Assembly: GCA_027941995.1 (NCBI GenBank) | Contig: CP115966.1 | Location: forward strand, 62,001 to 126,000 | Length of the DNA stretch: 64,000 nucleotides | Origin: Erythrobacteraceae bacterium WH01K | GTDB lineage: Bacteria; Pseudomonadota; Alphaproteobacteria; Sphingomonadales; Sphingomonadaceae | Direction of reading: 5' to 3' | Shown: one piece after another, positions 42,873 to 62,348 of the stretch | Layout: each line of letters begins with the position of its first letter | Position numbering within the stretch: the first letter of the stretch is position 1 | Program-made: the position numbers and the translations under genes | Notes under the pieces: generated by a model | The model's input: only the letters and a program-made list of their open reading frames with translations | Told to the model about the DNA's origin: nothing | Database searches by the model: none

Positions 42873-42959
42873 GCCCAGATGGCGGAATTGGTAGACGCGC
42901 ATGCTTCAGGTGCATGTATCCGAGAGGGTGTGGAGGTTCGAGTCCTCTTCTGGGCACCA
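42873..42959 (+). tRNA. tRNA-Leu (CAG anticodon)
   Basis: The acceptor stem GCCCAGA pairs with TCTGGGC, followed by encoded ACCA. The anticodon arm CATGC/GCATG closes loop TTCAGGT, giving anticodon CAG. The T-arm GGAGG/CCTCT encloses TTCGAGT. A long variable arm, typical of class II tRNA, lies between. It marks the left edge of the integrated element. Confidence 0.97.
42935..42959 (+). other. Probable left attachment site (tRNA 3' end)
   Basis: A tyrosine integrase of the DUF4102 (P4-like) type begins 177 bp downstream of the tRNA in the same direction, and such integrases normally use the T-arm to CCA end of a tRNA as attachment core. A matching direct repeat was looked for to the right edge and was not seen, so the far end is probably outside. 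Confidence 0.5.
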
Positions 42960-43135: not shown

Positions 43136-44338
43136 ATGGCTTTGACGAATCAGCAGGTTCGCGGGTTTAAGCCGAAGGACAAGCCTTACAAAAAGGGCGA
43201 TGAGAGAGGCCTGTACCTCCTCGTAAAACCGAACGGCTCAAAGCTCTGGCATCTCAAGTATCGCTTCGGCGGCAGGGAAAAGAAGATGCCGATTGGCCCT
43301 TTCCCTGAAGTTGGCCTGGCACAGGCGCGTCATGAAAGGGACCGCGCGCGCCTCGCGATTGCCGATGGCATCGACCCCATGCGGGAGCGCAAGCGGGAAA
43401 AGGCGCAGATCAAACTCGGTGCAGAGAACACGTTTGCATCAGTGGCGCAAACTTACATCGAGGAGAAGATGGTGCGGGAAGGGCGGGCCGAGGCCACGCT
43501 TCGCAAGGCACGCTGGTTTCTCGATCTGCTCAAGCCTGCCGTTGGGAATATGCCGCTCAATGATGTCGATCCGCAGCTGATGCTGGCGGCGCTCAAGAAG
43601 CTGGAGGCGAAAGGCAATCTGGAAACGGCGAAGAAGTGCCGTTCGTTTGCAAGCCGGGTGTTCCGGTTTGGAGCGGCCATGGGACTTTGCGAGACCGATC
43701 CGACATCAATCCTGAAAGGCGCGCTAGTTTCGCCCAAGGCGCGACACTACGCAGCAATCCTCGAACCAGAGAAACTGGGTCAACTGTTGCGCGCGATCGA
43801 TGGCTACGAATGCTATCCGGTCACGAAATTCGCTTTGCAGATCGCGCCTCACATTTTCGTCCGCCCCGGCGAACTTCGTCATGGGGAGTGGGAGGAGATC
43901 GACTGGGATAAGGCCATCTGGACCATTCCGGAAGGCAAGATGAAGGCGCGCCGAACTCATGTCGTGCCTTTGTCGCGACAGGTCCTGGAACTGCTTCGTG
44001 AGCTCAAGTCGATTTCCGGCGGGAAGGGGTACATTTTCCCTGCCTTCCACACCCGGCAACGGCCCATGAGCGAGAACACGATCAACGCGGCCTTCCGCCG
44101 CATGGGCTTCACCAAAGACGAAGTGACCGCTCACGGGCTTCGCTCGACGGCATCGACGATGCTCAATGAAAGCGGTTTGTGGCATCCGGATGCCATCGAG
44201 CGGGCGCTCGCGCATGGTGACAGCAATGCGATCCGGGGGGTCTACAACCGCGGGAACTACTGGGATGAGCGCGTCAAAATGGCTCAGTGGTGGAGTGATA
44301 ATCTGGATACGCTTCGAAAAGGCGAAACAGGCCATTGA
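43136..44338 (+). CDS. Tyrosine-type site-specific integrase (DUF4102/P4 type)
   Basis: A 400-residue recombinase. The N-terminal DUF4102 domain (about 1-90: FKPKDKPYKKGDERGLYLLV, LWHLKYRFGGREKKMPIG) is typical of integrases that target tRNA genes. The SAM-like core-binding domain spans about 100-190, and the catalytic domain has Arg243 (RPGELR), His333-x-x-Arg336 (HGLRST), and the nucleophile Tyr370 (GVYNRG). All catalytic residues appear intact. It points away from the tRNA. Confidence 0.95.
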   Translation: MALTNQQVRGFKPKDKPYKKGDERGLYLLVKPNGSKLWHLKYRFGGREKKMPIGPFPEVGLAQARHERDRARLAIADGIDPMRERKREKAQIKLGAENTFASVAQTYIEEKMVREGRAEATLRKARWFLDLLKPAVGNMPLNDVDPQLMLAALKKLEAKGNLETAKKCRSFASRVFRFGAAMGLCETDPTSILKGALVSPKARHYAAILEPEKLGQLLRAIDGYECYPVTKFALQIAPHIFVRPGELRHGEWEEIDWDKAIWTIPEGKMKARRTHVVPLSRQVLELLRELKSISGGKGYIFPAFHTRQRPMSENTINAAFRRMGFTKDEVTAHGLRSTASTMLNESGLWHPDAIERALAHGDSNAIRGVYNRGNYWDERVKMAQWWSDNLDTLRKGETGH

Positions 44339-44458
44339 TGCAGGTTTGCTTCATGGGCCACCGCTTTGCGCCCTGATCCCGGGAGTTGAAGTTCGACCAC
44401 CGATTACCCGAAAGCTGACAACAGGGTGGCGGTCTTGGATCGGTAGCTGGCTGCAGCC

Positions 44459-45595
44459 TTAGCCAGCTGGCCGGTTGGGGTCGCGCGGATTGGGCCTGAC
44501 GCGCTCCAGTTCGGCTTTCAAATCTGAAACCTGCCGGGACAGAGCATCGATTTCGGCCTGCTGCCGCTCCACCTCACCTCTCAGTGCCGGAACTGAAGCC
44601 CGCGCTTCATCGGGAGCTGTGCTGTAACGGTCTATTTCACTAACGTGCCGCTCAAGCGCACTGCGCATTGCCTCGGTGTCTGACCTAAGCGTTCCGGCTA
44701 TCTCTTCATTCCGTGACGACAATCCGCTGTTAAAATTCCAAAATGCCATTGTAAGCCCCGCTAGGGCTATGGCTGCCGCGACCATTGCATAGATGTTGAG
44801 AGTGCGAAGAGACTTAGCTTCGCCCGCTGCCGTCTCCGCGTCTGCCGCCGATTTCTTCACTGAAGCGTTCGCTGCCTCAAACATTGTTGGCAATGAACTC
44901 TTGATAGGCACTTTGTGCCCTCGATACTGGTCCGCTGCTTTGTGCAGGAATTTTTCAATATCCCAATGTTCTTTCCTTGGCTCCACAGAGCTTCCTTGTG
45001 GAGCGCGGGCCGCGTCGGATTCGTCGGTGGGTAGGGTTGTCTTGGTAAACTCGATCCAGATCAAACCCTCATCGCGTGGGATTTGGTAATCTTCATCAGT
45101 CAGGTTGTGCAGCGGTATGCATAGCTTGCCCCAAAAGCCAGGGTCGATCAGCGGGCCTGTGCCAAGCAGCAGCCCCCGATGAACATGCTGAATCTGCAAG
45201 TTGAAGCGCAGCGCAATGAAATCCGGAATCCGAAAATCCAGATCGCTTTCGACAAATACGATACTGTTCCGGGGGACTGTGAGATATTCATCTTTTGACT
45301 GATCGAAGATTTGATCCGGTCGGTTTGTGTCTCGGTAGATGTATGCCCTAGTTCCAATCCGGCCTTCATATGCCGCCTTCTTAAGGCGGTCTTTCCGAAG
45401 ACCTTGTGAGAAGAAAAAGGGCGCAACTATACCGGTCGCCTCAACCACTTCAGTTATGTGTGCCGAAGTGAGAAGTGTGTCGGGAATATTCAGCTGTTTT
45501 GGTTTCTTGTCCCAAGCCTCGGCAAGCTTTTTGCCTCGAGCGCGTGAGACGAGCAATTTTTCTCCGGGCGCAGCCTCGTCAGCCAGCAAACGCAC
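44459..45595 (-). CDS. Membrane-anchored dCTP deaminase/dUTPase-fold protein
   Basis: A 378-residue protein. Residues about 15-200 look like the DCD/dUTPase trimeric beta-fold: YLTVPRNSIVFVESDLDFRI, IALRFNLQIQHVHRGLLLGT, then GPLIDPGFWGKLCIPLHNLT, which matches the family's G-h-h-DPG-y-G-L strand. A membrane helix (about 275-300, IYAMVAAAIALAGLTMAFW) and a C-terminal coiled-coil (HVSEIDRYSTAP, then VERQQAEIDALSRQVSDLKA) follow, an unusual arrangement. GTG at 45595 is chosen because GGAG lies seven bases upstream; it overlaps the PurZ-like gene by 17 bp. Last gene of the left arm; catalytic activity is uncertain. Confidence 0.72.
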   Translation of the reverse strand: MRLLADEAAPGEKLLVSRARGKKLAEAWDKKPKQLNIPDTLLTSAHITEVVEATGIVAPFFFSQGLRKDRLKKAAYEGRIGTRAYIYRDTNRPDQIFDQSKDEYLTVPRNSIVFVESDLDFRIPDFIALRFNLQIQHVHRGLLLGTGPLIDPGFWGKLCIPLHNLTDEDYQIPRDEGLIWIEFTKTTLPTDESDAARAPQGSSVEPRKEHWDIEKFLHKAADQYRGHKVPIKSSLPTMFEAANASVKKSAADAETAAGEAKSLRTLNIYAMVAAAIALAGLTMAFWNFNSGLSSRNEEIAGTLRSDTEAMRSALERHVSEIDRYSTAPDEARASVPALRGEVERQQAEIDALSRQVSDLKAELERVRPNPRDPNRPAG

Positions 45596-46625
45596 TTCTG
45601 CGCTCCATCGACAAAGGTGAGAATCCAAGATGATCGATTGGCCTTCCGATTGCTCGTTCAACTTCCGTTATAAAGCCCGCTACCTTGGCGTACTCCTGAT
45701 TGCCCATGTGTCCCGAACCGACATAGTCCAAATGATTAAGCACGATCGCCGTTGGATTGTTGCAAGCAATCGCGGCCTTCACCACCGAAGCATCGAAATG
45801 GCCGACGCGGCGCAGTTTCTTTGTCACTGTCGTAAATTCACGCAGGTCGGATTGCGCGTCGATGGACTCGGAAATCGCTTCCCAACTCGTCTCGCCTGGC
45901 AGCGGGCCGGAATTTCCAGCAACCCGGATCGGATATGACCGGATGACGAGCACAACATTGTCCACGTCCATTGGGCTCAGACCTGTCTCGGCCAAAGCCG
46001 CCGCCGCCGTGGTTGCGCGCGAGGTGGCTTTGGGCCAATGTCCACCATCGTATAGTGACAGGCCGAACCCTTGCGTTCCTTCGATGACAATCCGAACGCC
46101 AGCATCCAGCCAGGTTCGCATCAAGGCCGTCGTGTCGCGCAAGAATGGTTCCAAAGGTGCGCAATGCGCGGCATCGTGCCGATGGAGCGGGAAATTGGAC
46201 GCCTCGCGGGCGACCTGCGCCATGATCGCCGCGCCAACGCCGCTACCGGTTGATCCAATTCCGGAAACCAACCCGGCCTCGACCTCCCAGGTCTTTTGCT
46301 CGGGAGTGATGATGTTTGCGTAGTGGCTTATGAAGATGCGTTTGCGCGGGTAATCAAGTTCATCAATCTCACGCAGCAACACATCAACGTCGACAAATGA
46401 ACCGGCCGGGAAAACGACATCGACATTGCGATCAACCGCGCCCGCCGGAAGCTGGCGCAGCGCAAACTTCCTACCCGAACGGTCGTAGGCTGTATGTCCG
46501 GAATTGGGGCCGCCGACCCGAACCACCGCAATCTGCCGCTCAGTCGCCATTCTGACGAGCTCAAGGGAAACCTTGCCCTTGCCTTCCGATCCAAATTGGC
46601 CACCAACGACGATTGATACTGGCAT
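45579..46625 (-). CDS. PurZ-like adenylosuccinate synthetase family protein
   Basis: A 348-residue homolog of PurA, shorter than the usual 430-residue bacterial enzyme and of the length of archaeal PurA and phage PurZ. The GTP loop reads VVGGQFGSEGKGKVS: the catalytic Asp of PurA (GDEGKGK) is Ser13. Other motifs hold: GGPNSGHTAYD, STGSGVGA (PurA has R in this loop), EGTQGFGLSLYDG and TTVTKKLRRVGHFD. As I recall, Asp-to-Ser in this loop is typical of PurZ, which makes N6-succino-2-amino-dAMP from dGMP for 2-aminoadenine DNA. ATG overlaps the upstream stop (ATGA). Confidence 0.82.
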   Translation of the reverse strand: MPVSIVVGGQFGSEGKGKVSLELVRMATERQIAVVRVGGPNSGHTAYDRSGRKFALRQLPAGAVDRNVDVVFPAGSFVDVDVLLREIDELDYPRKRIFISHYANIITPEQKTWEVEAGLVSGIGSTGSGVGAAIMAQVAREASNFPLHRHDAAHCAPLEPFLRDTTALMRTWLDAGVRIVIEGTQGFGLSLYDGGHWPKATSRATTAAAALAETGLSPMDVDNVVLVIRSYPIRVAGNSGPLPGETSWEAISESIDAQSDLREFTTVTKKLRRVGHFDASVVKAAIACNNPTAIVLNHLDYVGSGHMGNQEYAKVAGFITEVERAIGRPIDHLGFSPLSMERRSAFAG

Positions 46626-48502
46626 CAGTTCCCCTCTTCCCACTGCGCCGACAGGCTCAGAAGCGACGTAGCCATATCGTCCTTGGTGCCGATGTTGAAG
46701 AGCGTTTCGTGCGCGAGGCGTCCAAGCGTGGGCACCATGCGCTCGACTTCGGAAGCGTTGGCTTCCTCAAACGCCTTGCCAGCTTCCGAATGTGACAGCT
46801 CCAACCTTGCAGCATATCGCTTTCTGCGGACCTCATCGGGCGCGGACACATGAATATGGTGAAACCTGAAGCCAAACTTTTCCTTCAGAAAGGCATGATC
46901 ATCTGGGAAGCGGAGTCCGTCCACGACGATCTGACTTGCTCCTTCAACTCTTGAAACCGTACGCTCTGCCAGTTCTCTCTGCCGTCCGTCCCGATTGATC
47001 TCGATACCGACCGCCTGGCGGTTTTTGCGGTTAAGCGGCAAGCCTTGCTCCATCAGGATGTCGTCAATGACCAGGCTGAAGCGGGTGTAGGCATAGCCAT
47101 GTGCTTGCAAGATTTCAGCCAAGGTTGTCTTTCCTGCTGCGATTGGTCCGCTAACGCCAATCACAAAAGGTGTGCGACTTACGTCCAGGCGTGGGATGAT
47201 CAGTGGTGGTTCGTTGGCCGTACCAAGTTCCTCCGAAAGGCCGGCAAGGTGGAAAGTACCGACGAGAGCTGAAGTGATTGCATCGAGCTCGTCGTGAGTA
47301 ACCTTGGTGGTTTCGTATTTGCCCCGAATGCCGAAGTTCTTCAGACCCAATTTAAGCCATTCTTCTCCAGCGCCCTTTCGCGGGATACGCATCACATCTT
47401 GAGCCGCGCCCGGGTAACTCTCGATGACGGGCAGGCCGTGCGATCTGAATACCTGTGCTAGCCTGATGCCACGTGCAGTCAGCTTCTGCATGCTTGGGAG
47501 AAGGCTAGGGTAAACGTTCACGCCGCGCCGCTTAAGTTCGCGCTCGCAAAACCGCATTATGCCGAATTCTTCGCGCGTCGGATCGTCATCGAACACTGTC
47601 TGTCGACCGAATGGCAGGCAAAGAGGGGAATCGATTGAAATTAGGTCTGGCGATGCCGCCATCGTCCGCTCAACAAGCTCTTCGTCGGTAGAAATCGTCT
47701 CGGTCTTTGCCTTGCGCCCGTCGAGTAAGCACCACCCCGTTGGCCTTGCTTCTGATCCGGTCAGGTCGATTCCGACAATTCTGGACGTCTCGGCGCGAAG
47801 GCCATCAAATAACTCGCGAAACGTTGGTGCTCGCGTCAACTCTGGAGCGGCCTTCTTCAGCCCATTTGGTAGCTTTTGTCTGTCTTTGGGGTTGGACCAA
47901 TCAACGAACCTGACAGGCTGGCCGATCAGATCGGGTTCATAGCCCAGCATTGCCAAGGCATGATCCATTAGGCCTCCCATCGCAGCGATATCGGCCCGGT
48001 TATAAGCGATCAGGCGCTTGAGAGCTCCTAGTTCACCACGAAGATACTGATGCCACAACAACACTGCTGCGAACCCATCGACCCCCTCCAGATCATCTCG
48101 AAAATTGAGTCCCAATGTCGCTTCGATTGCCTTCTGGCCACCAGTTAAGCCTACTCGACGACAGAGGTACATCAGATCGATATGTGTTTCAGGAAGGCCG
48201 ACTTGCGGAAACTCCTGCTTCAAAAACCGCTGATCAAACCGAATGCCGTTGAATGTGACAACCGCCATCGCCCGCTGAGCGACCTGCAACATCTCTGATG
48301 GATCTTGGCCCTTTATGAATGTGCCGGATTTGCCGCCTATGGCCCAACCTACGATTGTGATTTCATCGTAAAAATGACTCAAGCCTGTCGTTTCGATGTC
48401 AAGAAATAGCACTCGATCGGGATGTTCGTGACAGATTGCTAGCTTATCCCGAAGTTCCCTGGAGATTGGTTTGGCAGTCTGGGCTCGGGCTGTTCGACGC
48501 AT
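46625..48502 (-). CDS. Three-domain fusion: RNase H-like exonuclease, DUF429, P-loop kinase
   Basis: A 625-residue protein. Domain 1 (about 30-210) is DEDD/YprB-type exonuclease-like: VLFLDIETTGLSHFYDE, VVTFNGIRFDQRFLKQEF, and RADIAAMGGLMDHAL. Domain 2 (about 240-440) is DUF429, predicted RNase H-fold: IVGIDLTGSEARPTGWCLLD, ISIDSPLCLPFG, ESYPGAAQDVM, HDELDAITSALVG. Domain 3 (about 460-620) is a nucleotide-kinase-like P-loop: VIGVSGPIAAGKTTLAEIL, with ASQIVVDGLRFPDD as probable Walker B. The three-domain order is unusual. ATG start at 48502. First gene of a three-gene translationally coupled unit with the PurZ-like and DCD-like genes. Confidence 0.78.
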   Translation of the reverse strand: MRRTARAQTAKPISRELRDKLAICHEHPDRVLFLDIETTGLSHFYDEITIVGWAIGGKSGTFIKGQDPSEMLQVAQRAMAVVTFNGIRFDQRFLKQEFPQVGLPETHIDLMYLCRRVGLTGGQKAIEATLGLNFRDDLEGVDGFAAVLLWHQYLRGELGALKRLIAYNRADIAAMGGLMDHALAMLGYEPDLIGQPVRFVDWSNPKDRQKLPNGLKKAAPELTRAPTFRELFDGLRAETSRIVGIDLTGSEARPTGWCLLDGRKAKTETISTDEELVERTMAASPDLISIDSPLCLPFGRQTVFDDDPTREEFGIMRFCERELKRRGVNVYPSLLPSMQKLTARGIRLAQVFRSHGLPVIESYPGAAQDVMRIPRKGAGEEWLKLGLKNFGIRGKYETTKVTHDELDAITSALVGTFHLAGLSEELGTANEPPLIIPRLDVSRTPFVIGVSGPIAAGKTTLAEILQAHGYAYTRFSLVIDDILMEQGLPLNRKNRQAVGIEINRDGRQRELAERTVSRVEGASQIVVDGLRFPDDHAFLKEKFGFRFHHIHVSAPDEVRRKRYAARLELSHSEAGKAFEEANASEVERMVPTLGRLAHETLFNIGTKDDMATSLLSLSAQWEEGN

Positions 48503-48777
48503 GCTTGCCTTTCACCATAGATGCCCTGTGCTGTATAGGTTGGACCTAAATGCGGGCATTTTAGACCACCCGACCTGGTGCGACATTCGGAGCGCTTCCA
48601 CAGCTTGGCACTCTCCTTCCCCACACCTTGACGCTTCGTAACATCTTACTGCGTCAGCGGCATTTTCGCGATCGTGCGGGAGATGGGCGCGTCGGTTGCT
48701 CTTGACCGTGATGGTGCCGGCACCGATTACGGCAAAGATAAAGAAAAGTGATGGCTGCAGTGTAACCTGGCAACAAC

Positions 48778-49696: not shown

Positions 49697-50500
49697 ATGA
49701 CCAGAAAATCGAGAACACTTGACCCCATCAATACGCGCCCTTCAGCCGGTACCGATCACATTGGTCGGCGGTTGAGGGGTGCCCGCATGTTCGCTGGTCT
49801 AACGCAAATCGAAGTGGCCCGACGTCTAGGAGTACAGCAATCTGCGGTGTCACGCATCGAGAACGAGCCGGACATGCGTATTTCGACGATACAGCGCTAC
49901 TTAGGCGTGTTGGGGGCTGGGATCGATTTGAATGCACGGTTCGACGCGTCCGCGATCGATGATCTTGGGGTGCCCCATGACGATCAGACTATAGACGGCC
50001 AATTCATTGTTCCGATTTTGGGTGACTGTTGGGCACCACAGAACCGCGAGTTCATCTTTAGCGTCAAGCCTCGTTATTCGCAGAAGATTGAGACGGGAGA
50101 GAAGACCGTCGAACTCCGCCGTCGGTTTCCAAAGTATGTTCCCGAGGGGACCATCGCCCTTATCTACTCGACTAGCCCAACGCGAGCATTGACAGGGATC
50201 GCCGAAATCGAGGGCGTGGAAGTTGGGACGCCAAGCGCGATATGGTCGGAATATGCGGAGCGCGCCTGCATCGGACGAAATGATTTCGACACATACTTCT
50301 CTGGCGCAGACTGTGCTCATGCCATTAAATTGCGTAGTGCTCGCCCGCTTCGCCGAAGTCTGGATCTTACTGAACTAAGAGAACGATTTGGTTTTGAACC
50401 CCCTCAATCCTATCGTTATGCCAAACCTGAACTTCGTGAGGCTCTGAGACATGAGTGGGGTGAGATATCTGATCGACACCAATGTATTCATCGGCCTTGA
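49697..50500 (+). CDS. XRE-type helix-turn-helix protein with ASCH-like domain
   Basis: A 267-residue protein. Residues about 22-80 are an XRE/Cro HTH (GRRLRGARMFAGLTQIEVAR, LGVQQSAVSRIENEPDMR), and about 105-200 an ASCH/PUA-like fold (FIFSVKPRYSQKIETGEKTV, ELRRRFPK, TIALIYSTSPTRALTGIAEI). ASCH domains bind RNA or modified bases. HTH plus ASCH suggests an antitoxin or regulator sensing a nucleotide/RNA ligand. Its last 50 bp overlap the PIN-GNAT gene. The palindrome just upstream is its probable operator. Confidence 0.82.
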   Translation: MTRKSRTLDPINTRPSAGTDHIGRRLRGARMFAGLTQIEVARRLGVQQSAVSRIENEPDMRISTIQRYLGVLGAGIDLNARFDASAIDDLGVPHDDQTIDGQFIVPILGDCWAPQNREFIFSVKPRYSQKIETGEKTVELRRRFPKYVPEGTIALIYSTSPTRALTGIAEIEGVEVGTPSAIWSEYAERACIGRNDFDTYFSGADCAHAIKLRSARPLRRSLDLTELRERFGFEPPQSYRYAKPELREALRHEWGEISDRHQCIHRP

Positions 50501-51992
50501 GGATTCGCGAGAAGTAGCACCGGATTTTGCTTCGTTTCGGCAGTTGGCTGCTCGTCACGGTGTCGGCGTTTTTATCCATGAAGCCGCAAAAGACGATATT
50601 GCGCGAGACAAGGATGACGCTCGACGGCGGATATCATTGAGCAAAATCGCAAAATTCCCGACCATTGCAAAGGTTAGGGGTTTGACGAACGCTGACCTGG
50701 AAGCTGAATTTGGCGGGCTTTCCCGCCCAAACGACGTAGTCGATACCACGTTACTGCATGCACTTCGGATTGGAGTTGTAGACTTTCTCGTAACTGAGGA
50801 TGGGGGGCTGCATGATCGCGCACGCCGCTATGCCTCGGGCATTGCCGATCGCGTCCTTTTTGTTGCCGATGCCACGGCGCTCTTGCGCTCGACGTATGAA
50901 CCGCAAGAGGTTCAGTTCCGCTACGTCGAAGAGGTCGACGCGCATACTATCCCAACCACCGATCCAATCTTCGAAAGTCTGAGAGAAGGTTATCCGCAAT
51001 TCGACACTTGGTGGCGGGACAGCTGTGTTGCGAAGTTGCGCAAATGCTGGGTTGTGACCGATAACGACGGCTTAGCCGGCCTTGTCGTACGCAAAGATGA
51101 GACCGCGACCAACACCGACGCGACCTTGCCGGGCGAACGGATACTTAAGATTTGCACATTCAAGGTACGGCCTGAGCGACGCGGTCTCAAGCTGGGCGAA
51201 CTGCTGCTGAAGCAAATCCTCTGGTTCGCTCAGAAGAACGGTTACGATGTCCTGTATCTCACCACGTATCCTGAACAGACTGCGCTCATCAGCTTGATTG
51301 AATACTATGGCTTTTGCCGAACCAAGGTTGCTGATGACGGCGAACTCACATTTGAGAAAGGCTTAAGCCGATTGCCGCTCGCGTGTGAGAATGGCGCAGA
51401 TTTGTTCGAAGTAGCGGCACGGTCATATCCGAGGTTTTGTGCCGACTCTACGGTCGCTGCTTATGGTATCCCGATTCAGGAAGACTATCACGAGGTGCTC
51501 TTCCCAGAGCTTCGTGACGATCGTCAACAAGACCTGTTTGAATTTGGCGGCATCGGTACCGGACCGCGAAAAGCGGGAAATACAATCCGAAAAGTCTATC
51601 TCTGCCACGCGCCCGCGAACCTGAGCGAGCGCGGCGCTTTGTTGTTCTTCTACAAAGGACAGTCGGAGAGGATGCCGTCGCAGGCGATTACAACAGTCGG
51701 AATCTTCGAAAATATGGCACTGGCTCGATCAACCGACGAACTACGTCGACTTGCTGGCGGGCGATCCGTTTACAGCGAACGCCAGCTGCAGTCATGGAAT
51801 GCGAGTCCCAAGAATCCGGTCAAGGTGATTAACTTTCTACTGGCAGGCCATTTGTCACCCGCTATGCAGATTGACGAGCTCCGAAGGGCCGGAGTGATTT
51901 CCAAGCAGCCACCCCAGTCGATCTTCAAGCTCGATCATACACGGCGTGCGCCCCTGTTGGCTCGGCTCGATTTGGGATTTTCGCTTCAATGA
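50451..51992 (+). CDS. PIN-GNAT protein with C-terminal ASCH/PUA-like domain
   Basis: A 513-residue protein. PIN nuclease domain (about 5-150) with acidic residues in YLIDTNVFIGLED, DTTLLHALRIG and VTEDGGLHDRAR. GNAT acetyltransferase domain (about 180-305) with coenzyme A-binding RPERRGLKLGELLLKQI and YDVLYLTTYPEQTALISLIE. The C-terminal part (about 375-500, KVYLCHAPANLSERGALLFF, ITTVGIFENM) is ASCH/PUA-like. PIN toxins cut RNA; GNAT toxins acetylate aminoacyl-tRNA. The start overlaps the XRE-ASCH gene by 50 bp, the layout of an antitoxin-toxin pair. Confidence 0.82.
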   Translation: MSGVRYLIDTNVFIGLEDSREVAPDFASFRQLAARHGVGVFIHEAAKDDIARDKDDARRRISLSKIAKFPTIAKVRGLTNADLEAEFGGLSRPNDVVDTTLLHALRIGVVDFLVTEDGGLHDRARRYASGIADRVLFVADATALLRSTYEPQEVQFRYVEEVDAHTIPTTDPIFESLREGYPQFDTWWRDSCVAKLRKCWVVTDNDGLAGLVVRKDETATNTDATLPGERILKICTFKVRPERRGLKLGELLLKQILWFAQKNGYDVLYLTTYPEQTALISLIEYYGFCRTKVADDGELTFEKGLSRLPLACENGADLFEVAARSYPRFCADSTVAAYGIPIQEDYHEVLFPELRDDRQQDLFEFGGIGTGPRKAGNTIRKVYLCHAPANLSERGALLFFYKGQSERMPSQAITTVGIFENMALARSTDELRRLAGGRSVYSERQLQSWNASPKNPVKVINFLLAGHLSPAMQIDELRRAGVISKQPPQSIFKLDHTRRAPLLARLDLGFSLQ

Positions 51993-52534
51993 AAACTGTC
52001 GCCGTCGTTGGCCTATCGGGCGTGGGCAAGTCCACCTCGATCCGGCGAGCAGCGATGGACATTGATCTATTGCACTTGCAGGCTAGCGCGCTGATTAAAC
52101 TAGAACAGGAACATCGGGCAGGATCCGCATGTTCATCAGAGGACCTTCGGCTCGGTCCTGTGCTCGATAATCAGGCTCTAATGCTGGCCGCATTCTCGCG
52201 GATGACCCATGGAGTTCGATCTCTGGTGGTGTTCGATGGGCATACGATCATAGACGGTGCAGCAGGTCCGATATTCATTCCAGCGGAGGTCTTCAATGCT
52301 CTAGGTTGTAAGAGCATGGCTTTCCTGTGGGACGAGCCAGAATTGATAGCCCAACGCCGCCAGGCTGATCATCGTCGCGATCGCCCCGCGCTAACTTCAC
52401 ATTTGCTTAGCCGGCATCAAAATTTGGCCGAACGTGCCGCGCGGGAAATATGCGGCGAGTTAGATATTCCTCTGAAATTGATCAAAGGGTCCGATCAGAC
52501 CGCCTTTCAAGAGTTCCTCGTGGCTGCGGTGTAG
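51989..52534 (+). CDS. P-loop nucleotide-kinase-like protein
   Basis: A 181-residue P-loop NTPase: VAVVGLSGVGKST is Walker A and SLVVFDGHTIID a probable Walker B. Arg-rich RRQADHRRDRPAL in the second half is a candidate lid, as in AAA_18/adenylate kinase-like enzymes. ATG overlaps the stop of the PIN-GNAT gene (ATGA). It ends the right arm of the cluster; the left arm also contains a P-loop kinase domain, fused to nucleases. Confidence 0.78.
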   Translation: MKTVAVVGLSGVGKSTSIRRAAMDIDLLHLQASALIKLEQEHRAGSACSSEDLRLGPVLDNQALMLAAFSRMTHGVRSLVVFDGHTIIDGAAGPIFIPAEVFNALGCKSMAFLWDEPELIAQRRQADHRRDRPALTSHLLSRHQNLAERAAREICGELDIPLKLIKGSDQTAFQEFLVAAV

Positions 52535-54399: not shown

Positions 54400-55620
54400 A
54401 TGCTCAACGAATTTGCTGCTCTCCGCGTCCGCGCTGGTCTTTCTCTCGACGATGTTGCCCGAATGACCGGTTATAGCGTCCGGCACGTGCAACGCTGGGA
54501 AGCGGGGGACGGAAAGCCGAGAGAGGCAGCTGTCAGACTGCTCCACTCTATGGCTTCTGTTGGGCCTGTCCAGTCAGGCAGCCGGTTCAACTTCATCGAT
54601 CTGTTCGCGGGGATCGGCGGCATCCGGAAGGGCTTCGATGCCATCGGCGGGCACTGTGTGTTCACCTCCGAATGGAACAAGTTCGCTCAGGAAACCTACG
54701 CTGCAAACTTCCGGGACAACCATCCCCCGCATGGCGACATCACAGCGATAGAAACTGACGAGATTCCGGATCACGATGTACTGCTGGCGGGCTTCCCGTG
54801 TCAGCCGTTCTCGATCGCCGGTGTTTCCAAAAAGAACTCGCTGGGTCGCAAGCACGGTTTCCTCGATGAAACGCAGGGTACGCTGTTCTTTGACGTAGCC
54901 CGCATCATCCGGGCAAAGCGGCCTGCGGCTTTCCTTCTGGAAAACGTGAAAAATCTCAAGAGCCATGACAAGGGGCGGACCATCGATGTCATCCTGCGAA
55001 CGCTGACCGAGGAACTTGGCTACAAGGTCTGGCATCAGGTGATCGATGCGCAGCACTTTGTGCCGCAGCATCGCGAACGGATCGTGATTGTCGGCTTCCG
55101 CGAAGCCGTGCCATTCAGCTGGGACGACCTGAGACTCCCGCCCAAAGGGAGCGTCCGGCTGAACAGCATCCTTCATCCGGAAGACGGTTCGGAGAGAGCT
55201 GAGGCTCCTTACACCCTCGGTCCGGACGCTGCCGTCAACGGCAAGTACACACTGACCGACAAGCTCTGGCAGTATCTCCAGGGCTATGCGGAAAAACACA
55301 AGGCTGCGGGCAACGGCTTTGGCTTTGGCCTGGTGACGCCCGACGATGTCGCACGCACGCTTTCAGCCCGGTATTACAAGGATGGCTCGGAAATCCTTGT
55401 CAGTCAGGGGCCGAAACGCAATCCGCGACGCCTGACGCCGCGCGAATGCGCACGGCTCATGGGCTATGGCGACGACTACCGCATCCCTGTGTCTGACACG
55501 CAGGCCTACAAACAATTCGGCAACTCGGTGGCAGTGCCGGTCTTTGAGGCCGTGGCCCGCGTTATGCAGCCCCATATTCAGGCTCTGGTCGAGCCTGTCA
55601 GGGGAAGCAAAGCGGCCTGA
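54400..55620 (+). CDS. DNA (cytosine-5)-methyltransferase with N-terminal HTH
   Basis: A 406-residue C5 methyltransferase. Residues 1-50 form an HTH ([31 protein letters not shown]). The catalytic domain starts [20 protein letters not shown]; motif IV is GFPCQPFS (nucleophile Cys134), motif [11 protein letters not shown], motif [14 protein letters not shown], and motif [13 protein letters not shown]. It resembles EcoRII/Dcm-type enzymes of CCWGG or the related CCNGG class. First gene of a restriction-modification operon; the Vsr gene begins three bases after its stop. Confidence 0.94.
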
Positions 55621-55623
55621 CGC

Positions 55624-56076
55624 ATGGCCGACGTTCATGACGTTGCCACGCGCAGCCGCAACATGGCGGCGATCAGAGGTGCCAACACGAAGCCGGAACT
55701 CCAGGTCCGCCGGGCTTTGCACGCGCTCGGGCTTCGCTTCCGGCTTCATGCAAAGGAACTGCCCGGAAAGCCTGACCTCGTATTCCCGCGTCACAATGCG
55801 GTGATCTTCGTCCATGGCTGCTTCTGGCACGGGCATGATTGTCACCTCTTCAAAATGCCCGCGACACGGCAGGAATTCTGGGCGGACAAGATCGGGCGCA
55901 ATACAGCCAATGATAAGAAGGCTGCCGCTGCACTTCAGGCTGATGGATGGCGCGTCGGCGTGGTCTGGGAATGCGCGCTGAAAGGCCGGACGAAGCCAGA
56001 TTTTGCTGAAACTATGCAGGCACTTGCCTTGTGGGTAAGGTCGACTGAACCGTCGATCACGCTCAGGGGCAATTAA
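55624..56076 (+). CDS. vsr: Very short patch repair endonuclease
   Basis: A 150-residue Vsr nuclease that nicks at T:G mismatches arising from 5-methylcytosine deamination. VATRSRNMAAIRGANTKPEL is the family start, then PGKPDLVFPRHNAVIFVHGC with the catalytic Asp (near residue 50) and zinc-binding FWHGHDCHLF. Its role fits a cytosine-5 methyltransferase one gene upstream. The endonuclease TTG start immediately follows its stop. Confidence 0.95.
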   Translation: MADVHDVATRSRNMAAIRGANTKPELQVRRALHALGLRFRLHAKELPGKPDLVFPRHNAVIFVHGCFWHGHDCHLFKMPATRQEFWADKIGRNTANDKKAAAALQADGWRVGVVWECALKGRTKPDFAETMQALALWVRSTEPSITLRGN

Positions 56077-57396: not shown

Positions 57397-57412
57397 GCTG
57401 CATTGCAGTAAC

Positions 57413-60160
57413 TCAGCCCAGCCCGGCACCCATCGATTTCGAGGTTCCGGCGTCCGGTGTGCCCGCGGTCATGGCCGTCTGCTTCTCACCTGCGCGCTCA
57501 CAGATCGCGCGAACGAGCCGGTCCTTATCGTCGGTAACGACCACGGCCTCGGCCCTGGCACGCGACAGCGCGACATAGAGCATCTTCTGGTCAACCAGAT
57601 TGGTGGAGCGGCTGTCGGCGTGAATCAGGACACGCTCGGCGGTCTGGCCCTGGACGGCGTGGGCGGTCTGGACATAGGCGTGGCGTAAATGGGCATCGCG
57701 CGGATCGGAGAGATCGAGCTTCTGCTCGCGCCCATTGGCGAGCTTCACGGTTGCCCGGCCACGGTCGGAATCGATGCTGGTAATGGACCCGCCAAGGCCA
57801 TTGACCCGCCCGGCCTCGCGGTCGTTGCGCGTGAACTGCACGCGGTCGCCGATGCGGAGTTCCATCGAATTGGGCTCGAACACCTCGGCTTTGCCTGCAC
57901 CCCACTGCCGGGGATGCCAGTCAACCGACCTTCCATCGCGGCCTTCCAGGGCAATACGCCCGCGTTCAGGATCGAAAGCGGCGATCGCAAAGCTCTCGCC
58001 TCGGCGCACGCCCTTGGCGGCGTAGTCGCGGCTGAACCGGACAACATCGCCGAGGGCATAGCTTGCAGCCTCGCGCGCTTCGGCACGGGTCAGGCCTTTC
58101 GCTTCAAGCGCGTGGAACAGGACGGCCTCCGCTGACAGCTCGCCGCGCCCGGTCAGTTTCGTGCGGATCATGTCAGTAAGCTTGTCGCGGCCCTCGCGCG
58201 ATGGCTCGATGACCAGGGTTCGCGCGCGCTCTGAGGGCGACAAAGTCAGATAGTGCCGGGCCATCGCCTCAAGGCGCTCATCTGGCGTTGCGCCTTCCAT
58301 CACCTTGCCGCCGCCACGTTCAAGCGCGGCCAGAGCCTTGCCCGCATGGCCTTCGATTGAGGCCATCACGGCTTCGCGGGTCCCGGCATTGGTCTGCCGG
58401 ACGACCTCGGCAAGCTTGGCGGTCGCCATGCCTGCCTGCTGCAACTGGGCGAAGGCTGCGCCAGCGCCGACCGATCCCAGCTGCTTGACGTCGCCGACCA
58501 GAACGAGCCGGGCTCCGGCCTTGTCGGCACGGGTAAAGAGTTTCGTCATATCGTGCGCCGAAAGCATCGAGGCTTCATCGACGATCCAGACGGCTTCCTT
58601 GCCTGGTCTCTTCGCCTCGGGCGCGAGCAGGTGCCGAGCCACGGTATCGCCACGCAGGCTCAGCGCCTCGCCCAGCACGGTTGCTGCCGATGCGGTTGGC
58701 GCGAGCGCAGTCACGGCAAGTCCTCCCCGCTGGGCCTCGCGAGCATAGGTTGCAAGCACGGTCGTGGTCTTGGCTGTCCCGGCATAGCCCTGGACCGCAG
58801 CGACGCGGTCACGCGAGGTGAGCAGGTCTGCGGCCGCCCGCTTCTGATCCCCGGTCCAGGCGTAGCCGGACCGGGCTGACTGCCGTGCCGCGCGCTCGAT
58901 GGTCCGTGCTGCCGCCACCGGACTGGCGAGCGCTTGCTCCATGCCGCGTCCCGCCTCCTCAAGGCCCAGCATTGTGCGCTCGGTTGCGATAGCCTGCGGC
59001 GTCGTGAACCCGGCAAACTCCGCGCCCCGCCGGTCAAAGAAAGTGCGTGTGACAAGCTCGCCGCGCTTCCCGGCCTCGGCAATCGCTGCGCTGATTGGGC
59101 TGTGTCCGGCCTTGCCAAAGGCAAAGTCTCCGGCTTCGCGCGCGAGTGTGCTGGCCGAGAATACGGCCTCTCGTTCGGACAGCTTGGCTGCAGCCCAGGC
59201 CACCGCCTGCCGCGCCAGCAATTCCGGGCTGGCGGCTGCTTCGTTGCCTTTAACCCACTCTCTCGCCCTACCGATCAGCCTGTCTCGCGCTGCCTGGTCG
59301 AACCCGTGGGCATCGGCAGTCGCCCGCCAGTCGGCTCGCAAACTGCGATGATCCGCACTGGTCTTGGCCTCGCGCGTATCGAGCGCGGCGATCTGCTTTT
59401 CAGCAGCACTCGCCTCCGCGCGGCTCGTGCCGCGCTCGGCGAGCCGGGCATCGATCGCTGCGGTGCGCTGGCTCAACGCATCGATGGCCTTCTCCGGAAC
59501 ACCTGCGATCTCGAAGAGCGAGTCTTTGGCAACTTCGATCTTGTATCCCAGCGCGGCAACGCCGTGCACCAGTTCCTGCCGGTAGATCGCGCCAATCTCC
59601 TTTTGCAGCTGGTAAAAGGCGCGCGGCTCAAGGCTTCGCCAGTTGCCATCCTTGTCCTGCGTGGCATTGAGGATGACGCCGTGGGTATGCAACTGCGGGT
59701 CCTGCGCCCGGCTTGTGGCATGGCGGAAGGTGGCGATGGCGAGATTGCCGGTCATCTCGCGCCGGACCTCGCTGCCCTTCCTGATCCGCGTTGCTGCCAT
59801 GTGCTTCTCGACATGGGCTAGCGCCACTTTCACCGCCGCGCCATGCGCCTTGATCAACCGCTTGTCTCCGGCAACCTCGGCCATGATCGACACCGACTTG
59901 GGCGCGGAGAGGGTGATGTCCCAGCCTGGCCGGTGCTCCACTTTGCCATCGCGCGTGGTGCCAAGTTGTTGCCCGGCAACGCGGCCTTCGAGCAGTTCGG
60001 CAAACTTCTCGCGATCGACCTCGCCCGACAAGCCCAGCTTTTCCGCCGCTTCGCCAAACCACTCGGACGGAGCCATGCCACCTTCGGCATAGTAGTCGTC
60101 GGCTTCGTAATAGCTGGCAGCCTGACCGGCACTCGACAGAGCCGAGACCGATGCGACCAC
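57413..60160 (-). CDS. traA: MobF-family conjugative relaxase/helicase TraA
   Basis: A 915-residue relaxase that nicks oriT and unwinds the transferred strand. The GTG start overlaps the traD stop; the N-terminus VVASVSALSSAGQAASYYEA, DDYYAEGG carries the catalytic tyrosines. The His triad lies in QLHTHGVILN. RecD-like helicase: VQGYAGTAKTTTVLATYARE (Walker A with Ala where Gly is usual), WIVDEASMLSAHDM, LVLVGDVKQLGSVGAG, and C-terminal AYVQTAHAVQGQTAERVLIH. The C-terminus is shorter than some plasmid homologs, but the domains look complete. Confidence 0.93.
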   Translation of the reverse strand: MVASVSALSSAGQAASYYEADDYYAEGGMAPSEWFGEAAEKLGLSGEVDREKFAELLEGRVAGQQLGTTRDGKVEHRPGWDITLSAPKSVSIMAEVAGDKRLIKAHGAAVKVALAHVEKHMAATRIRKGSEVRREMTGNLAIATFRHATSRAQDPQLHTHGVILNATQDKDGNWRSLEPRAFYQLQKEIGAIYRQELVHGVAALGYKIEVAKDSLFEIAGVPEKAIDALSQRTAAIDARLAERGTSRAEASAAEKQIAALDTREAKTSADHRSLRADWRATADAHGFDQAARDRLIGRAREWVKGNEAAASPELLARQAVAWAAAKLSEREAVFSASTLAREAGDFAFGKAGHSPISAAIAEAGKRGELVTRTFFDRRGAEFAGFTTPQAIATERTMLGLEEAGRGMEQALASPVAAARTIERAARQSARSGYAWTGDQKRAAADLLTSRDRVAAVQGYAGTAKTTTVLATYAREAQRGGLAVTALAPTASAATVLGEALSLRGDTVARHLLAPEAKRPGKEAVWIVDEASMLSAHDMTKLFTRADKAGARLVLVGDVKQLGSVGAGAAFAQLQQAGMATAKLAEVVRQTNAGTREAVMASIEGHAGKALAALERGGGKVMEGATPDERLEAMARHYLTLSPSERARTLVIEPSREGRDKLTDMIRTKLTGRGELSAEAVLFHALEAKGLTRAEAREAASYALGDVVRFSRDYAAKGVRRGESFAIAAFDPERGRIALEGRDGRSVDWHPRQWGAGKAEVFEPNSMELRIGDRVQFTRNDREAGRVNGLGGSITSIDSDRGRATVKLANGREQKLDLSDPRDAHLRHAYVQTAHAVQGQTAERVLIHADSRSTNLVDQKMLYVALSRARAEAVVVTDDKDRLVRAICERAGEKQTAMTAGTPDAGTSKSMGAGLG

Positions 60161-61980
60161 TATACCGGTCCCGGTTTGGCGTCGGGCTCGGCGCCTTTGG
60201 CGATCTCGCTGACCCGGCTCCACAGCGTGCCTGCCGGATCGCCAGGCACGTAACCGGGCTGACGCGGCTCGCCACGCCGGGTGATATGATCTGCGGTGAG
60301 GCCAATGCGCGCAACCGGCAGTCCATCGGGAAGAAGCAAATAACCTTGATGTGGACTGAGCCTCAGTTCGCTTTCGAGCACGGCGGGGCGGAATTGCCGC
60401 TGGGTGGCGATGGTCGTGCGCGGCACCTCGCTGCCAATCGACAACGTGTCGGTAGCAACGCGCAGTTCCACCTCGCACTGACCGATGGTCTCGCTCGCCC
60501 ATTTGCGCGTTTCTTGATCGACGGTTTGCAGGAACAGTTTGGTGTTGCAGCAGGCGAGCATGGCTTCGGCGATGTTCGCGCCATAGCGATTGCGCATCTG
60601 CCCGAGCGCCTGAAATGTGAGCACGATCGCTGCGCCAAACTTGCGACCTTCTGGCAAAAGCCGCGCAAGGTTCTCGACGCGAGGCAGGTCGGCCAGCTCG
60701 TCGAGCACGAACCAGATGCGGCGGTCTGGCGATGGCGACAGACCCAGTACCGCACTCGCCGCGCATTCGAGCCAGCAGGCCATGAGCGGCTTGGACGCTT
60801 CGAAGTAGTCTTCCTTGCGGGGGACAAAGATCCAGGGCTTTGCACCTTCGCACTCATCCAGCTTGGCGATGAAATCGCGGAAGGCGAAGCGGTCCTCTCC
60901 CTCATCTTCGACCTTGAGGAACTGGATCAGGTTCGCTGCCTTGGCGAGCATGAAGAGCACGCTGCCGGTGGCGCGATCGGCGTCATTGGCAAAGGTGCGG
61001 GCGGACGACGTGTGCCCCAGCCACTCCTTCAATTGCTCCTTGTCCTTGACCTGCAAGGCTTCGAGCAAAGCTTCGAGGCTGCAGTTCTTTTCCGCCCAGA
61101 GTGAACGGATCATGTTGGCGACAAGAATGCGGCTTGTTTCGAGCCAGACATCGTCATCCTGACTGCTGGTTTCCGAGACCAGCTGGCGTGCAATCCGGTC
61201 GGCGTCGGCTGGGTGCGAAATCTCGTCGAACGGTGTCCAGAAAGCACACCGCGCGTCGAAGGGATTGAGGATGATGTCGCCGCGCGCGGGGTTGTAATAG
61301 TGCGCGATGAACTCGCCCGATGTGTCATAGACCAGCGCCGCTTCGCCACGCCTTTCGATGCCATCAAGCATCTGGCGCAAGGCTGTGGTCTTCCCGCTGC
61401 CGGTGGTGCCGAGAATGGCAAAGTGACGGGTCTCGATCCGGCGCGGAACCGGGATCGGACCGATGCGCAATGCATCCCTGCCACAGAGCAATGTGGTTTG
61501 TGCGGCGACGTCCTCTTCATCCGCCACGCGGGTGCCGCCGATGACCCGGTCGGCGAGCGTATCCTTGCCCTGTTCAGACATGGTTCGCTGGAGCACCCAG
61601 ACTGTGAACAGTCCTATCACAAGCCCGGTGATTGCACCGCCAGCGATCACTTTGACGACCTGCCAGAAGGTATCGATGAAGAGCGGTTCAGAGGCGAACC
61701 AAGCGGCGGACACGGTCCAGCGCTGGCCTTCCATCGCAATGTTCATCTTGATGTCGCTGCCCCCAAGGGAACCGAGCAGGGTCAGCACGTTGGCCCACGC
61801 ATACTGCACCGCTGTCGTTATAGCGGGGCCATGCAGTAAGAGCTGCGGGGCGATGATTGCTCCAGTCGCTGCTGCACCAAAAGTGATCGTGGAAAAGAAG
61901 CGAAACCGTTGCTGCCATTGCGCCATGCGCACCCGCCACAGGGCATGGGCGCGGGTAACAAAATCGATGTTCGAATTCAT
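60160..61980 (-). CDS. traD: Type IV coupling protein TraD (VirD4-like ATPase)
   Basis: A 606-residue coupling protein that feeds relaxase-bound DNA to a type IV secretion channel. Two N-terminal membrane segments (about 28-50 and 105-132) flank a periplasmic loop. FAILGTTGSGKTTALRQML is Walker A (about 190-198), RRIWFVLDELADLPRVENL Walker B, and VLTFQALGQMRNRYG the sensor region. The start overlaps the stop of the small RHH gene by four bases and its stop overlaps the traA start. Confidence 0.93.
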   Translation of the reverse strand: MNSNIDFVTRAHALWRVRMAQWQQRFRFFSTITFGAAATGAIIAPQLLLHGPAITTAVQYAWANVLTLLGSLGGSDIKMNIAMEGQRWTVSAAWFASEPLFIDTFWQVVKVIAGGAITGLVIGLFTVWVLQRTMSEQGKDTLADRVIGGTRVADEEDVAAQTTLLCGRDALRIGPIPVPRRIETRHFAILGTTGSGKTTALRQMLDGIERRGEAALVYDTSGEFIAHYYNPARGDIILNPFDARCAFWTPFDEISHPADADRIARQLVSETSSQDDDVWLETSRILVANMIRSLWAEKNCSLEALLEALQVKDKEQLKEWLGHTSSARTFANDADRATGSVLFMLAKAANLIQFLKVEDEGEDRFAFRDFIAKLDECEGAKPWIFVPRKEDYFEASKPLMACWLECAASAVLGLSPSPDRRIWFVLDELADLPRVENLARLLPEGRKFGAAIVLTFQALGQMRNRYGANIAEAMLACCNTKLFLQTVDQETRKWASETIGQCEVELRVATDTLSIGSEVPRTTIATQRQFRPAVLESELRLSPHQGYLLLPDGLPVARIGLTADHITRRGEPRQPGYVPGDPAGTLWSRVSEIAKGAEPDAKPGPV

Positions 61981-62348
61981 GGCTCGATCTCCAGGGCAAG
62001 CGAGCGCTGGCGCTCGAACGCAGCGCGCGCTTCGGCTGCAATTGTCTCGTCAGATTTCTTCGTTCCCAGCGCCGCATGGCGGGCGTAAGCGTAGGCCGCG
62101 CAGGCGGTGAACAGGGTGCGGTCGAGCACCCGTTCTGCCTCGGCCAGGCGCGCCGATATCGCCCCGATCTCGCGCGCCAGTTCGGCAAGATCGGTCTCCT
62201 TGTCGGTGCCGTGAAGCATGGCGAGAAAGCCTGCTTCCACGACCCGCGCCAGCATGGCGTAGTCGCTCAGGCCCCTCCGCTTTGCGAAGTCGGCCAGCAC
62301 CCGGTATTGCGACGGACTGAGGCGCACCGTTTGCGCCCGCGCGCTCAT
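61977..62348 (-). CDS. Ribbon-helix-helix-like mobilization accessory protein
   Basis: A 123-residue protein. The N-terminus MSARAQTVRLSPSQYRVLAD is a short beta-strand and helix typical of RHH/MobC-like relaxosome proteins; the rest is helical and Ala/Glu-rich. Its position before traD and traA fits an oriT-binding accessory. Coupled to traD by a four-base overlap. Confidence 0.75.
   Translation of the reverse strand: MSARAQTVRLSPSQYRVLADFAKRRGLSDYAMLARVVEAGFLAMLHGTDKETDLAELAREIGAISARLAEAERVLDRTLFTACAAYAYARHAALGTKKSDETIAAEARAAFERQRSLALEIEP

Follow-up and report, generated by a model that had tools for sequence, protein, structure and literature searches.

Synthesis of DNA containing 2-aminoadenine (Z) is presented as a phage trait in the passages that we draw on from two papers (PMC8342488, PMC12884076). 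In phage S-2L, PurZ is encoded in a datZ-mazZ-purZ cluster together with partners that control nucleotide pools (PMC8342488), and phages with the PurZ0 type carry DutZ, a protein of the dUTPase/DCD fold, beside it (PMC12884076). Expression of phage Z genes in E. coli is toxic and brings Z into the DNA, where it accounts for 12.1% of the adenine in plasmids and 3.9% of that in the chromosome (PMC8342488); a cell could therefore harm replicating DNA by means of Z. No bacterial PurZ operon appeared among the matches listed from the open-licence literature of PubMed Central (PMC), which is no proof of absence. Here we describe a purZ-like gene and its two neighbours in 64,000 nucleotides of Erythrobacteraceae bacterium WH01K (GenBank assembly GCA_027941995.1, contig CP115966.1, positions 62,001 to 126,000 of the forward strand). 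This whole stretch is called the window, and coordinates refer to it unless another locus (L number) is named. The three genes lie on the minus strand and form one cassette under purifying selection. Its gene set, conservation, phylogeny, conserved residues and extent are established here. With little better than even confidence, we read it as a mobile cellular cassette that would make Z deoxynucleotides and act in conflicts with phages or with mobile DNA of other kinds.

Phylogenetic position of the PurZ-like protein

The purZ-like gene occupies positions 45579–46625 of the minus strand. Read from the ATG at 46625 it encodes 348 amino acids (aa), and from a GTG six codons upstream (46643) 354 aa. 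The product matches Pfam PF00709 (E = 4.6e-49) and PHROG 1211 (E = 2.8e-76). Among solved structures, 7vf6 (183.6 bits), the PurZ0 of phage Archimedes (PMC12884076), is closest to it in sequence, followed by the Pyrococcus PurA 5k7x (164.5 bits). The P-loop reads GQFGSEGKGK, including Ser13, and the second loop GSTGSGVGA, where the PurA of the same genome and other bacterial PurA have G(A/S)QWGDEGKGK and GTTGRGIGPAYE. Pfam, PHROG, structure match, tree and active-site columns together point to a homologue of 2-aminoadenylosuccinate synthetase. An earlier note, made by a model from the letters alone, had drawn attention to the motifs GSEGKGK and STGSGVGA, the length of 348 aa and the DCD-fold and nuclease-kinase neighbours; all of these are present, on the minus strand, which the note had left unstated.

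In a maximum likelihood tree of 58 rows, the 11 bacterial PurA rows are split from all else with support of 100/100, after which two further PurA branch off, that of Pyrococcus and one encoded in a deazapurine-like cluster of Rhizobium. A PurZ superclade of 45 rows is split from the archaeal-type PurA at 100/98. Its members are the PurZ and PurZ0 of phages, a group of viral proteins about 410 aa long, the proteins with a fused kinase, and the window type, which forms a clade of 11 rows (99/97). By this tree the window protein belongs firmly to the PurZ superclade, outside both bacterial and archaeal PurA. The earlier note had preferred a PurZ-like to a PurA-like enzyme and had named a tree among its checks; the protein does not group in PurA, and the active-site columns described below back the same assignment. 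The window clade branches with phage PurZ0, its nearest phage group (84/89), and archaeal L009 joins next (85/92), both below the level that the tool stars; that the clade is sister to phage PurZ0 is no more than likely. Phage PurZ does not form a single clade here, as two cellular Ser-type rows (L029, L030) and L019 fall among its rows. Further Ser-type relatives (GSCGKGK) of 526–530 aa with an N-terminal extension were seen in two metagenome-assembled genomes (MAGs) of uncultured Tenericutes (L010, L011). An archaeal-type PurA (GDEAKGK) is encoded on a Rhizobium leguminosarum plasmid (L024, 9384–17732) with FolE, PurB, QueE, IMP dehydrogenase, nitrile hydratase and QueC, a cluster that resembles a 7-deazapurine nucleoside pathway.

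Active site and predicted substrate

In S-2L the marks that distinguish PurZ from PurA include Ser23, Thr273 and Gln308, as well as an inserted loop segment following Val241 (PMC8342488). All 11 window-type rows have Ser at position 23, Thr at position 273 and the insertion, which reads PIRVAGNSGPL in the window versus TRVGSGPF-like sequences in PurA; at the catalytic position, all 11 bacterial PurA rows have Asp. The column of residue 308, which contacts the adenine-nucleotide donor, holds Asn or Gln in the phage PurZ rows (5/5). It holds Asp in the window-type (11/11), PurZ0 (6/6) and bacterial PurA (11/11) rows, and judged by this residue the window enzyme is PurZ0-like, not S-2L-like. With phage PurZ0 (Archimedes 7vf6; Arthrobacter phage Wayne) it shares Ser for the catalytic Asp, the TTVT loop, the PIRVAGNSG insertion and the Asp at the guanine-nucleotide position, and its identity to phage proteins is about 36–42% among the best matches listed. 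The window type differs from phage PurZ0 in being cell-borne on islands and plasmids, in having no DpoZ alongside and in its partners, a nuclease-kinase protein and a DCD protein with a hydrophobic helix.

We infer that the acceptor is deoxyguanosine monophosphate (dGMP) and the donor a guanine nucleotide, the latter because Asp stands where S-2L has Gln308. This reading of the donor is based on the residue and not on the donor statement in PMC12884076, the introduction of which gives ATP for PurZ while its results put the donor preferences in another order.

The earlier note had also taken the Ser as a mark of PurZ. This agrees with the invariant Asp of bacterial PurA, but the small alphaproteobacterial genomes G058 (99% complete) and G275 (91%) carry a chromosomal Ser-type enzyme and, by PF00709 search, no full-length canonical PurA. 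Ser alone is therefore no proof of dGMP use. In G058 (L059) the Ser-type gene (GSTGKG) lies between genes for cytidylate kinase and a ribosomal S1-domain protein, beside a Ham1-family gene; the gene order in G275 (L058) is the same as judged from the sizes of the open reading frames (ORFs), and both enzymes group among phage PurZ.

The window enzyme might instead be a PurA-like salvage or house-cleaning enzyme that acts on another substrate (dIMP, GMP) and has no link to Z. The PurA fold, the Asp shared with PurA at the guanine-nucleotide position and the two genomes with a Ser-type enzyme and no detected canonical PurA speak for this explanation. We nevertheless hold it to be improbable, given the tree position and the joint presence of the PurZ-specific Ser, Thr and loop insertion. 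Moreover, a separate, full canonical PurA is encoded elsewhere in the same genome (571 bits), and canonical PurA is also present in nine of nine other carriers tested (six DCD-type, three kinase-fused).

Partner proteins

Upstream of purZ lies the gene of a 625-aa fusion protein (46625–48502, minus strand), whose stop codon shares one base with the start codon of purZ (TGATG). Pfam, alignment and structure match divide the protein into an exonuclease-like RNase_H_2, a DUF429-like and an AAA_18 kinase-like part. In the RNase_H_2 domain (residues 32–182; 47957–48409, minus strand; Pfam and alignment) D35, E37, D90, Y167 and D171, which we take to be the DEDDy set, are the same in all ten aligned copies. 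The DUF429-like domain (residues ~243–438; 47189–47776, minus strand) was recognised by conserved acidic residues and a weak match to PF04250 (E = 0.0035; 6.3e-4 in L009). The P-loop kinase domain (residues 448–568; 46799–47161, minus strand) is a homologue of the kinase that plasmids of Rhizobiaceae encode in fusion with PurZ (E = 2e-6 and 5e-6). Its top structural match is 3lw7, an AMP-bound adenylate-kinase-related protein (E = 4.8e-7). A Dyadobacter plasmid (L227, 4432–6594) encodes a free-standing protein with 53% identity to the DUF429 domain, beside an annotated diadenylate cyclase.

The third gene (44459–45595, minus strand) follows downstream of purZ. Its likely start is the GTG at 45595, and the ORF reaches to a TTG at 45661. 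By hhalign, Foldseek and hydropathy the product consists of a DCD/dUTPase-fold domain followed by a hydrophobic, likely transmembrane, helix and a coiled coil. It aligns with housekeeping Dcd at E = 1.5e-12 and with DutZ at E = 1.2e-7 (hhalign), and its structural model (mean predicted local distance difference test score, pLDDT, 68; residues 31–210 mostly above 80) matches Dcd/dUTPase entries of the PDB with a Foldseek E-value of 3.5e-10. Where the deaminase has its catalytic Glu (Glu138 in E. coli), the window protein has Pro183, an equivalence taken from the hhalign alignment with Dcd. The Pro is invariant in three alignments (10/10, 14/14 and 12/12 rows), and this replacement rules out an active deaminase. 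Asp173, at the place of the catalytic Asp in the Dut-type ID-x-G motif, is also invariant, and the RSS phosphate motif reads RFN. All 15 sequences contain a 19-residue hydrophobic stretch in the C-terminal part, with a mean hydropathy of 1.56–2.79; the two rows of Sinorhizobium medicae are lowest at 1.56, just below the usual cut-off of 1.6. The protein resembles the DutZ of PurZ0 phages in placing a dUTPase/DCD fold beside PurZ (PMC12884076) and differs from it in being closer to Dcd by hhalign, in lacking the RSS motif and in having the hydrophobic helix and coiled coil.

This architecture would suit nucleotide signalling, in which a Z deoxynucleotide is the alarm of infection and the membrane-tethered DCD-fold protein is its sensor and, with the nuclease protein, the effector. 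The fold is kept although Pro183 excludes deamination, the hydrophobic stretch is present throughout, and PurZ and DCD stay paired even at loci that lack the nuclease-kinase gene (L112, L021). The invariant Asp173 points the other way, since hydrolysis is possible with it, and we know of no receptor for the Z deoxynucleoside triphosphate (dZTP). We consider signalling of this kind rather unlikely.

Conservation and distribution of the cassette

The nuclease-kinase, PurZ and DCD set was found at 13 distinct bacterial loci, with duplicates merged and the window included (window, L004–L008, L109–L111, L230, L242–L244); genes at related loci were called by codon-position scoring. In L008 the order is shuffled and two DCD genes are present. 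The ratio of nonsynonymous to synonymous substitution rates (dN/dS) was 0.071–0.083 for purZ in three of three comparisons. For the nuclease-kinase gene it was 0.047–0.050 and for the DCD gene 0.094, in two of three comparisons each, the third being saturated. These values and the recurrence at distinct loci rule out chance or a pseudogene.

We searched related genomes with profiles, the own genome being counted in the figures for order, family and phylum. The DCD profile gave seven strong matches (E<1e-70) in 396 genomes of the order, while many weaker ones were housekeeping-Dcd-like; PurZ was adjacent in all seven and the nuclease-kinase gene present in six. Among 377 genomes of the family the nuclease-kinase profile had eight matches. 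The seven of full length were all accompanied by PurZ and DCD, and the eighth, located at a contig end, covers the RNase H part only. In a draw across the phylum, two of 398 genomes (the own genome and that of L230) carried matches, both with the set, and within the class of L230 the count was one in 78. Three records out of 72,556 plasmids matched the DCD query, all from S. medicae and all beside PurZ. This patchy distribution fits horizontal transfer.

The locus from another class of the phylum, L230, ends with a deoxynucleoside kinase gene (E = 2.3e-24). In archaeal L009, a Methanophagales MAG, the set lacks the fused kinase domain and is followed by genes for a deoxynucleoside kinase (PF01712, E = 1.4e-22) and adenylosuccinate lyase (purB). 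PurZ and DCD without a nuclease gene nearby were found in L112 and on the S. medicae plasmids; these plasmids also carry a YfbR-like HD gene.

At the DNA level the similarity to L005 spans window positions 44457–48538 and that to L004 positions 44502–48526 (no strand assigned), and we take 44457–48538 as the extent of the cassette. Similarity to both loci stops at the cassette edges and no match was found in the available flanks; the edge on the DCD side rests on L004, which extends 6.9 kb beyond it, as the sequence of L005 reaches only 144 bases further.

Comparison with viral loci

Viral contigs carry PurZ relatives that are up to 47% identical. We surveyed the best 80 of 200 viral contig loci, in which PurZ was annotated in 78, a DutZ-like protein in 48, a DpoZ-like protein in 25, KIN in one, KINf in two and HD in one. 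An RNase H (RNH) or DUF429 domain occurred in 0 of these 80 loci. The DCD query matched in eight, where at least one match is a DutZ-like ORF. A scan of the viral contigs with the nuclease profile returned only two weak RNase H matches, and one with the DCD profile found no relative; both scans start from short exact patterns and may miss distant copies. In the window itself none of 376 ORFs of at least 60 aa matched the DpoZ of Wayne or a Klebsiella-phage polymerase (phmmer; PrimPol was not searched), and references for DatZ, MazZ, DutZ, deoxynucleoside kinase, PurB, HD and DUF7002 gave no match either. Compared with the S-2L cluster (PMC8342488), the cassette likewise combines PurZ with pool-control partners, and its sister modules include a YfbR/DatZ-like HD gene; it differs in having no MazZ or DatZ homologue, in its exonuclease-like/DUF429/kinase fusion and in lying outside a phage genome.

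These results bear on the possibility that the cassette is the leftover of a Z-phage or prophage. The nearest described enzymes are phage PurZ0, viral relatives are known at the identity given above, and an integrase gene is adjacent. Against this stand the missing DpoZ-like ORF, the absence of the nuclease/DUF429 partner from the surveyed viral PurZ loci with two weak RNase H matches in the wider scan, the lack of a viral relative of the DCD profile within the reach of that scan, and purifying selection on all three genes. A prophage remnant is thus disfavoured, and we regard this origin as very improbable. The earlier note had suggested something other than a phage genome strategy, and this is supported: no DpoZ-like ORF is present among the 376 ORFs and the cassette recurs in cellular genomes.

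Sister modules with a kinase-PurZ fusion

At 11 loci (L022, L023, L055–L057, L060–L065) a kinase is fused to the N-terminus of PurZ. They comprise eight plasmid records (seven from Rhizobiaceae, one from Methylobacterium) and three alphaproteobacterial genomes. The kinase can be tied to PurZ because it is fused to it here and adjacent to it in the cassette. A DUF7002 homologue follows the fusion in all 11 loci (E = 1.9e-72 in L022) and may resemble DarT-type proteins. Ten of the 11 have a YfbR/DatZ-like HD gene near the fusion (E = 2.5e-88 for HD in L061) and ten a protein of 450–500 aa, putatively PPDK-like, with both missing in L055. The sister HD protein aligns with DatZ at E = 6.9e-8 over 70 columns (hhalign), the DatZ side consisting of only two rows. 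Near the fusion of Agrobacterium rubi (L065, 4036–4962) we noticed a further DCD/dUTPase-like ORF with a weak DutZ match (E = 1e-4) and a C-terminal hydrophobic stretch; a methyltransferase gene comes after it.

Defences based on dGTPase and dCTP deaminase stop phage replication by draining pools. Pool starvation would be a comparable role for the cassette, with PurZ draining dGMP, the DCD protein another deoxynucleoside triphosphate (dNTP), and Z arising as a by-product. The HD genes beside the sister modules are in line with it, as is the hhalign match of the DCD protein to DutZ. Furthermore, phage Z metabolism pairs proteins of these two kinds, with DutZ removing dATP (PMC12884076). Such starvation nonetheless appears improbable to us: PurZ acts on dGMP and not on dGTP, the cassette kinase would restore triphosphates, and the Dut-type RSS motif is RFN here.

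Possible role of the cassette

The reading of the cassette as a cellular source of Z nucleotides can be put into steps. The exonuclease-like/DUF429 protein may free deoxynucleoside monophosphates, including dGMP, from DNA. The PurZ-like enzyme is predicted from tree and active site to join dGMP and aspartate to 2-aminodeoxyadenylosuccinate (dSMP), with a guanine nucleotide as the probable donor, and the PurB of the cell, the gene of which comes after the archaeal copy, could convert dSMP to the Z deoxynucleoside monophosphate (dZMP). The fusion and the domain type suggest that the kinase would phosphorylate dZMP to the diphosphate (dZDP), from which cell enzymes would make dZTP. The DCD-fold protein, with no deaminase glutamate and with a likely membrane helix and coiled coil, might bind or hydrolyse a deoxynucleotide as a gauge or sensor. 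It is conceivable, though we would put it at somewhat less than even, that bacteria and archaea own a Z-nucleotide pathway that serves as an immune device rather than the making of a phage genome, and in which breakdown products of DNA are turned into Z nucleotides that poison, mark or signal via a membrane DCD-fold receptor.

Defence genes were found around several copies. Of ten neighbour proteins from four loci, seven match PADLOC models, with at least one in each locus: a type I restriction enzyme and Argonaute in L004, PDC-S41 and weakly PDC-M41A in L006, type I R and S subunits in L110 and a IIG-like protein in L008. The window copy has a PDC-M11 pair and a C5 methyltransferase close by. 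This suggests that cassette copies sit in defence islands. The nucleotide-modifying conflict system proposed in the earlier note is plausible from the gene set and the sampled neighbours, its activity being a prediction. Known dCTP deaminase and dGTPase defences and the Kongming dITP system act via dNTP pools or a non-standard purine nucleotide; the cassette differs from them in its enzymes and in the absent deaminase residue.

Several points weigh against a Z-making conflict cassette. The sample of neighbours is small, hand-picked and without matched background, and three of the ten had no match. At E≤0.001 the PurZ and DCD proteins match no PADLOC family, and the matches of the 625-aa protein are confined to the kinase domain (a dCTPase model) and to weak ones for the nuclease. 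The match to DUF429 is a weak one, the grouping with PurZ0 (84/89) is not strongly supported, and the window cassette appears to lack a dedicated hydrolase for dATP or dGTP of which a relative is known. In addition, Ser taken by itself does not fully identify a second enzyme that makes Z (G058, G275). The kinase-fused group keeps the Ser (11/11) and the insertion but has Gly at position 273 in 10 of 11 rows, which makes the substrate there less sure. The purZ of L009 has Gly in place of the Ser and one in-frame stop.

If such an immune device exists, Z chemistry would be a weapon common to cells and phages, and a conserved cassette for PurZ, nuclease, kinase and nucleotide-binding protein would shift it into cellular immunity. 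It would offer a testable candidate for a non-standard purine that acts as a weapon or a signal, and, given the archaeal copy of the set, it would bear on the origin of PurZ.

Genomic island and flanking genes

The cassette neighbours a tRNA-Leu (CAG) gene (42873–42959, plus strand), which adjoins the island, and the island's tyrosine integrase gene (43136–44338, plus strand; ORF list of the window and Pfam). The local G+C content is 0.53–0.57 versus about 0.65. An exact search of the genome found no second copy of the 23-base tRNA 3' end, and hence no target-site repeat to mark the far (right) border of the island.

Beyond the cassette, the products of 49697–52534 include HTH-ASCH-like (HTH, helix-turn-helix) and GNAT-containing proteins that match the PADLOC candidates PDC-M11B/A, with an AAA_17 kinase next. 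A C5-cytosine methyltransferase with an HTH is encoded at 54400–56076, followed by one further ORF, which presumably resembles a Vsr endonuclease. Finally, at 57412–62316 the window shares DNA at about 76% identity with two further islands, 4.9 kb with that of L007 (57.4–62.3 kb) and 1.4 kb with that of L109 (57.4–58.8 kb). Both islands also hold the cassette, set among other genes.

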